A DNA stretch of 64,000 nt from Cryomorphaceae bacterium. GTDB lineage: Bacteria; Bacteroidota; Bacteroidia; Flavobacteriales; Schleiferiaceae. Made by a program: the position numbers and the translations under genes. Shown one piece after another: positions 1 to 1,705 of the stretch. The DNA lies in assembly GCA_003566715.1 (NCBI GenBank), contig PXCF01000135.1:1-64000 (forward strand), read 5' to 3'. Under the pieces are notes generated by a model. That model made no database searches. It worked only from the letters and a program-made list of their open reading frames with translations, and was not told the origin of the DNA. Positions within the stretch are counted from its first letter, which is position 1. Every line of letters begins with the position of its first letter.

Positions 1-1332
1 AAAAAAGAATATGACTGTATAACCCTGATTTGCCCAGTCGTCATACGCTTGCTGCCAGGCTTCGTCGATGTCCAAACCGCCATCCGTTAAGTAGCGAATA
101 CTGCCAATCATGTATACCTGACCTTCGTGTTTTGCGTGTACGCCTTTTCCCGTCACCGAGTCAAAGTTTTGCAAATCCACCGCTTTGTGGTCGTCTTTAA
201 GGTAATACTCCACCGCTGAAGCCAAGGGGTGCTCCGATTGTAACTCCATACTCAGCAACACGTCTTTTCTAGCCCCGTCGCTCCAACGTGCATCAATCAC
301 TTTAGGTCGGCCTTCAGTAATGGTACCGGTTTTATCGAGCACCACCGTGTTGACTTTGGCTACCGCCTGCAGAGCTGCCGCTTCTTTCACCAACACGTGC
401 TTTTCTGCCCCTTTACCGATACCAATCATAATGGCCGTGGGCGTGGCCAATCCCAGTGCACACGGACAAGCAATGACCAGTACAGATATGGCCGCTACGA
501 TGCCCAGCGACAAACCGGAGGAACCGGCGGCCATGTACCAAACACCTACGGTCAACACCGAAAGGATGAGAACAACTGGCACAAAAACAGCCGCAATTTT
601 ATCCACCGTGTGTTGAATGGGCGCTTTGGAACCCTGCGCGCTTTGTACCGTCTGAATGATTTGTCCGAGCAGGGTCTCCTCCCCCGCTCCGGTTACCTTC
701 AACACAAAGCTCCCTTTCTGATTGATGGTACCGGCAAAGACTTTGTCGTCTTTGGTTTTTTCCACCGGTATGGGCTCCCCGTTGATGGGACTCTCGTCGA
801 TGTAGCTCATTCCGTCTTCGACTACACCGTCTACCGGTACTTTCTCGCCCGGTTTTACGCGCACCATGTGTCCCGACCGTAACTCAGCAATAGACACCTC
901 TTCTGTTTCCCCGGATTCATTGATTTTCAAAGCCGTTGACGGTTGAAGACCGAGCAATTTTTCAATGGCTTCACCCGATTGTCGCTGGGCGCGAAACTCG
1001 ATGAATTTACCCAAAGAAATAAAGGCAATAATCACCGCCGATGCTTCAAAGTAGATGTAAGCTTCCAGTCCGTACTGCTCAAAGAAGGACGGAAAGAACA
1101 TGGACACCGTCGAATAAACAAAGGCCACACCGGTGCTCAGCGCTACCAAAGTGTCCATATTTGCGCTCTTCAGTTTAAGGCGCTTCCAGGCATTGATGAA
1201 AAAGTGGCGACCGTAATAAAAGGTCACAATACCGGTAAGCAAAAACGATATCCACAGACGGACGTTTGGTCCCGTACCCGCTTCCGGCATAAAAAACATG
1301 CCAATGACAAACACGGGAAACGCGCCAATCAT
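1..1332 (-). CDS. copA: Copper-translocating P1B-type ATPase (CopA), C-terminal part cut by window edge; 5' end probably fuses by -1 frameshift to the HMA ORF at 1383..1622
   Basis: Minus-strand frame is open from about 1390 to position 1. Translation contains LVIACPCALGLATPTAIMIG (CPC motif) and VNTVVLDKTGTITEGRPK (DKTGT motif). First in-frame ATG is at 1332, but family-like sequence (RHSKTYNRLKIRAIAS) continues upstream to the A10 tract. Confidence 0.93.
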   Translation of the reverse strand, partial: MIGAFPVFVIGMFFMPEAGTGPNVRLWISFLLTGIVTFYYGRHFFINAWKRLKLKSANMDTLVALSTGVAFVYSTVSMFFPSFFEQYGLEAYIYFEASAVIIAFISLGKFIEFRAQRQSGEAIEKLLGLQPSTALKINESGETEEVSIAELRSGHMVRVKPGEKVPVDGVVEDGMSYIDESPINGEPIPVEKTKDDKVFAGTINQKGSFVLKVTGAGEETLLGQIIQTVQSAQGSKAPIQHTVDKIAAVFVPVVLILSVLTVGVWYMAAGSSGLSLGIVAAISVLVIACPCALGLATPTAIMIGIGKGAEKHVLVKEAAALQAVAKVNTVVLDKTGTITEGRPKVIDARWSDGARKDVLLSMELQSEHPLASAVEYYLKDDHKAVDLQNFDSVTGKGVHAKHEGQVYMIGSIRYLTDGGLDIDEAWQQAYDDWANQGYTVIFFF

Positions 1333-1382
1333 GGAAGCGATGGCGCGTATTTTTAAACGGTTGTAGGTTTTGGAATGTCTAT

Positions 1383-1622
1383 CTACGAATTTTTTTTTTC
1401 CAGCGCCTCAATGTTGAGGTCGTAACCCAACTTTTTGATTTCAGCTCTCCACGCTTCTAAATCGGCTTTTTCACCGGAGTACTCTACCGTTGCCGTGTGG
1501 TTGGCGTAATTTACCCGTGCATTGTTGACATCGGGAATGTGCTTAAGCATGTTTTCAACAGACATGGCGCAGGAGGCGCAGGTCATGCCTTCGACGGGGA
1601 TATGGATGGTGTTATCGCTCAT
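1383..1622 (-). CDS. Heavy-metal-associated (HMA) domain, 79 aa; frame-0 product ending just after an A10 tract
   Basis: IPVEGMTCASCAMSVENML carries the GMTCxxC copper-binding motif; Met start and TAG stop are visible. Confidence 0.9.
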   Translation of the reverse strand: MSDNTIHIPVEGMTCASCAMSVENMLKHIPDVNNARVNYANHTATVEYSGEKADLEAWRAEIKKLGYDLNIEALEKKNS

Positions 1623-1705
1623 TACGGAGTTTCATTTTTATAAGTGATACAAAAATACAGCTATAAATATGGGTTAGCGTATGCAATTATGGTGGATTTG
1701 TATGG

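Follow-up and report, generated by a model that had tools for sequence, protein, structure and literature searches.

An A10 tract splits copA in five genomes of a Bacteroidota genus and probably allows one gene to specify two copper proteins by slippage

The copper ATPase gene copA in the 64,000-nt stretch of DNA analysed here (the window) seems to be broken: the reading frame of its HMA domain closes just after a run of ten As, and the ATPase lies in the -1 frame. Is this an error, a damaged gene, a pair of separate genes, or a single gene that uses the A tract to make two products? The original prediction had proposed the last of these. Its reading of the junction was confirmed. On the minus strand the HMA frame runs CTG GAA AAA AAA AAT TCG TAG and stops two codons past the tract, which occupies 1390-1399. 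The ATPase frame, GAA AAA AAA AAA TTC GTA GAT ..., reaches the window edge without a stop, as described, and continues on contig G000:C50 of the same genome up to its own normal stop (the join is a 120-nt overlap, all identical). The features of the locus are as follows.

1383..1622, minus strand: 79-aa HMA ORF in the 0 frame, the predicted CopZ-like default product (Pfam HMA, 64.6 bits, residues 9-68)
1390..1399, minus strand: A10 tract in xAA AAA AAA AAT phase; A10T in 5/5 congeners, and dnaX has the same tract and phase
1383..1385, minus strand: TAG, 0-frame stop; an immediate stop is kept in 4/5 congeners
1379..1381, minus strand: TAG, +1-frame stop (TAGATAG); both non-ATPase frames terminate here
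1..1407, minus strand: CopA P-type ATPase ORF in the -1 frame, running off the window (Pfam E1-E2_ATPase, 183 bits; TIGR01525)
1650..1657, minus strand: TATTTTTG, a Bacteroidota -7-like promoter motif 35 nt 5' of the HMA ATG (weak evidence)

The Bacteroidota -7 promoter consensus is TAnnTTTG. No separate promoter has been shown for the ATPase frame.

The ATPase has the features of a PIB1 (CopA-type) enzyme by its Pfam and NCBIfam matches and its motifs: the E1-E2 ATPase domain, CPC (CPCALG) in TM6 and DKTGT. YN and MAGSS (the C-terminal MxxSS) are present in the G000:C50 continuation. Note that the TIGR01511 score of 357 (cut-off 397) was computed on the truncated window part of CopA alone. 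No other close copper ATPase is encoded in this genome, which is 99.6% complete. The short ORF fits the format of a CopZ-like protein, with 79 aa, a single HMA domain above the Pfam cut-off and GMTCASC (MxCxxC). The NCBIfam CopZ models matched it below their cut-offs (52.8 vs 91 and 49 vs 85), and we therefore refer to it as CopZ-like, not as CopZ. Its best PDB matches were ATPase metal-binding domains, closer than CopZ. This is expected from its origin in copA, but it also means that chaperone activity is not assured.

Split copA with exactly A10 followed by T was present in all five genomes analysed for the genus (all drafts of about 150-260 contigs, without reads, RNA or protein data). The junctions read GG-A10-TTCGTAG, GG-A10-TCCTTAG, TC-A10-TCCTTAG, CG-A10-TCCTCTGAACG and TG-A10-TCTTTAG. 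Joint conservation of the A run and of the immediate 0-frame stop had been put forward as a check on the original prediction; the A run was kept throughout and the stop in four species, the exception being G002, where the 0 frame extends ~12 codons beyond the stop of the other species to give 91 aa. In the same proportion of species, a stop of the TAGATAG type closes both the 0 and the +1 frame right after the tract. Over the genus, the ATPase shares 60-89% identity with that of the window, and most pairs are close to saturated at synonymous positions (pS about 0.8). For the closest pair (window vs G001), dN/dS was 0.066 in the HMA frame and 0.065 in the ATPase frame. Purifying selection therefore acts on both frames, which rules out pseudogene decay in either one. 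The gene order dnaB, lipoprotein-like gene, copA recurs in G001 and G004 as in the window; the stretches retrieved from G002 and G003 did not show it. The sequence criteria for programmed slippage, namely a conserved tract of at least nine A/T at a frame junction and a conserved shifted frame, were met in 5/5 genomes. An A11 tract or an unbroken orthologue would have refuted the original prediction; as far as the assemblies can tell, neither occurs among the congeners, each of which has A10 and a split gene. Judged by these comparisons, split copA is neither an assembly error nor an isolated mutation.

The tract is not unusual by its mere occurrence. Dinucleotide shuffles predicted 3.3 A10 runs per 64 kb, against one observed, and 0.8 was expected in the coding sequences of the window with codons randomised. 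A single A10 is thus not above chance; what exceeds chance is the conservation of A10T at the junction in every congener. The genome-wide survey, which took A10 followed by T and left out A10 before other bases, found 62 A10T sites in the five genomes. When their surroundings were compared, only two loci were common to all five: the copA junction and dnaX. The lineage thus keeps A10 where slippage is expected and does not retain its other A10T sites. Only one other A10T locus was common to two genomes of the genus (L131, G000:C59:14266, and L169, G002:C189:15347).

In the source genome the dnaX tract (G000:C79:23274-23284) lies at the gamma/tau junction. The genus dnaX reads GAA GAA AAA AAA AAT GA in frame directly past domain III, in the codon phase of copA. 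It is of the single-ORF type, and both other frames meet stops soon after the tract. At this junction, most of the Flavobacteriales dnaX loci read (L188-L216) had A10, with A9 or A11 now and then. In several genera (e.g. L197, L213, L214 and L216) a stop closes the 0 frame directly behind the tract, so that the default dnaX product flips between genera, from a single ORF in some to a 0-frame stop in others. The G025 dnaX junction, GAAAAAAAAAAGCCTTAG, closely resembles that of copA and has a 0-frame stop right after the tract. Within genus g8, dnaX has A11 in one species (L203, with a 0-frame stop) and A10 in two (L199 and L208, open). In Thermus-type dnaX, slippage at the gamma/tau junction is established, with T. 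thermophilus showing transcriptional slippage on A9 (PMC5009743, PMC1088944), and transcriptional realignment has been proposed for two-ORF dnaX genes with ten As (PMC3711429).

Outside the genus, no split copA was found among strong CopA matches at the level of the family (89 genomes) or the order (298 genomes, 110 of them with such matches), or among 62 named-organism loci. Order matches that start near residue 80 belong to a different ATPase type, with ORFs of >830 aa; one match, in G010, ends at a contig end and was left unjudged. None of the fused loci read had an A-run of at least nine at the junction, and the KKK linker was missing from all 28 aligned fused relatives, indicating that the tract was gained in the genus. 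The five split copA genes formed one clade in the tree (SH-aLRT 100). As strong matches elsewhere are unsplit, the simplest history is a single gain of the split, no later than the base of the genus. A literature search, which did not extend to supplements and most subscription journals, returned no report of an A10-split copA.

We found no other cytosolic CopZ candidate in the five draft genomes. Their remaining HMA proteins look exported or lipoprotein-like, or are part of an unrelated 488-aa protein. A lipoprotein-like HMA-like protein with GMTCxSGCKK or GMTCxTGCKK, likely a periplasmic metal-binding protein, occurs genus-wide (G000:C151:4726-4878, L032; L179, L180, L181 and L183). A second exported HMA-like protein, with VDGxCxMCKKRIE, is likewise genus-wide (G000:C75:18825-18995, L033; L182, L184 and L186) and has a conserved HHCCxYR near its C-terminus. 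In at least two sister genera, a CopZ-like ORF of 72-73 aa overlaps or abuts copA on its upstream side (L143:4117-6525, L144:1315-3699). Since sister genera keep this ORF beside copA, the loss of copZ may have accompanied the gain of the split. With copZ-copA pairs in these relatives and no other cytosolic CopZ in the genus, the short copA product is most simply read as filling the CopZ role, although this, including Cu(I) transfer to CopA, is an inference.

These results make it probable that split copA is a programmed slippage gene for two copper proteins; slippage itself, its mainly transcriptional route, the ratio of the products and the role as a chaperone are all inferred. RNA polymerase would generate mRNAs with varying numbers of As on the A10 tract. 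Transcripts of the templated length (and those differing by three) would encode the 79-aa cytosolic HMA protein, a putative CopZ-like chaperone. Those with one extra A (A11) or two fewer (A8) would encode full-length CopA, comprising the HMA domain and the PIB1-type copper-exporting ATPase. The remaining transcripts would stop within a few codons and give the HMA protein as well. As the pump would be made only via slippage, the pump-to-chaperone ratio would be set by RNA polymerase. Ribosomal -1 slippage on the same tract may contribute. If slippage occurs, transcription is the likely main route, because the tract is a full A10, lacks a conserved hairpin and is identical to that of dnaX. The suggestion that one gene yields both a chaperone and full CopA is thus supported by the conserved tract and split and by selection on both frames; expression of the two products remains an inference.

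The same two proteins would arise by programmed -1 ribosomal frameshifting on A_AAA_AAA from a faithfully copied tract. In this codon phase AAA AAA would occupy the P and A sites, where -1 re-pairing is possible, and the -1 frameshift of E. coli copA is a precedent (PMC5009743, PMC9548414, PMC7558416). However, the five species shared no conserved stem-loop near the tract (by single-sequence folds only, without a pseudoknot search), including at the usual downstream spacing, and no conserved upstream element or other stimulator around it. Moreover, all ten As are kept and not merely a heptamer, and A_AAA_AAA is reported to be much weaker than A_AAA_AAG in E. coli (PMC5009743). Ribosomal slippage on this sequence is not excluded, but as the explanation of the locus it appears unlikely. 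Initiation of the ATPase as a second gene, independently or by translational coupling, would dispense with slippage altogether, and every species offers an ATG (1332 in the window) or a TTG 11-24 codons from the tract. Yet the first possible start codons are ATG at +22 in two species and TTG at +14, +24 and +11 in the others, with no start codon conserved ahead of TM1 across the five species; the ATG at 1332 is itself at the start of TM1 and not conserved. The family-like sequence Y.RLK.R precedes most of the candidate starts. With start type and position varying behind conserved sequence, an independent start is improbable, as originally suspected, and the relatives are fused; we regard two separate genes as very unlikely.

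Three further explanations concern the history of the tract rather than its decoding. A linker A-run may have lost one A, with inevitable slippage rescuing the pump and leaving a short product without function. Slippage at poly(A) tracts is reported for the endosymbionts Buchnera and Blochmannia, as cited in PMC5009743. Such an indel could be undone by a single base, but reversion has occurred in no species despite near-saturated synonymous divergence, while in another genus congeners do differ between A10 and A11 at the dnaX tract. The KKK linker is not ancestral, double stops follow the tract, and the genus offers no further cytosolic CopZ candidate. A merely tolerated indel is therefore a doubtful explanation, to which we give little weight. 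A phase-variable contingency gene, switched by slipped-strand mutation between A10 and A11, is conceivable because homopolymers in coding sequences can phase-vary (PMC3711429). All five species nevertheless have the identical 'off' length, although within-species data are lacking, and the genome has no second close Cu-ATPase besides this pump, which is not a surface antigen, making such a switch highly improbable. That the true length is A11 and the split a homopolymer sequencing or assembly error could be entertained for draft genomes, but A10 recurs in the assemblies of five species and the out-of-frame stops are conserved in four; the chance of such an error is close to negligible. Slippage at A10 as a programmed source of two copper proteins remains our preferred reading.

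How does this arrangement relate to known systems? E. coli copA uses a programmed -1 ribosomal frameshift to produce CopA(Z) (Meydan 2017 and Drees 2017, as cited in PMC9548414 and PMC7558416), and this frameshift is stimulated by a slippery site, a pseudoknot and the nascent chain (PMC7558416). The likeness is that both an HMA chaperone and the complete pump would come from a single gene, which switches past an HMA domain. The original prediction was right that the slippery sequence differs, and the difference can now be sharpened. In E. coli the 0 frame encodes the full pump and the frameshift the short form, whereas in the genus the 0 frame gives the short form and slippage the pump; the signal is an A10 tract without conserved structure, and transcriptional rather than ribosomal slippage is favoured. 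Since its 0 frame encodes the short form, the genus copA cannot be classed as -1 frameshifting of the E. coli copA type. Compared with the copZ-copA pairs of sister genera (L143, L144), which have a dedicated copZ upstream of an HMA-containing CopA, no such pair was found in this genus, and the first HMA domain of its copA could replace the dedicated copZ.

Whether a cellular gene of Bacteroidota other than dnaX has acquired an A10 switch for transcriptional slippage that is now fixed, independently re-evolving the production of two proteins from one copA through another mechanism, with the default reversed and a lost copZ replaced, we consider an even call. If true, production of chaperone and pump from one gene has arisen on at least two occasions, each by its own recoding route, suggesting a benefit in the very coupling of their ratio. 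The few genes that need A-tract slippage for their long product would also gain a conserved cellular member. Annotation pipelines would call such a locus a pseudogene or two genes, and similar cases may therefore be hidden.

The closest mechanistic parallel is dnaX. Like two-ORF dnaX genes with A10 (PMC3711429), the genus copA has its A tract at a domain junction, with a short product in the 0 frame and a long one by slippage. It also resembles T. thermophilus dnaX in having an A9-A10 tract at a domain junction, although in a different gene, and reversal of the default product is known for dnaX (PMC5009743). In conclusion, the genus copA resembles E. coli copA in its outcome and two-ORF dnaX in its proposed mechanism, and formally it is neither.
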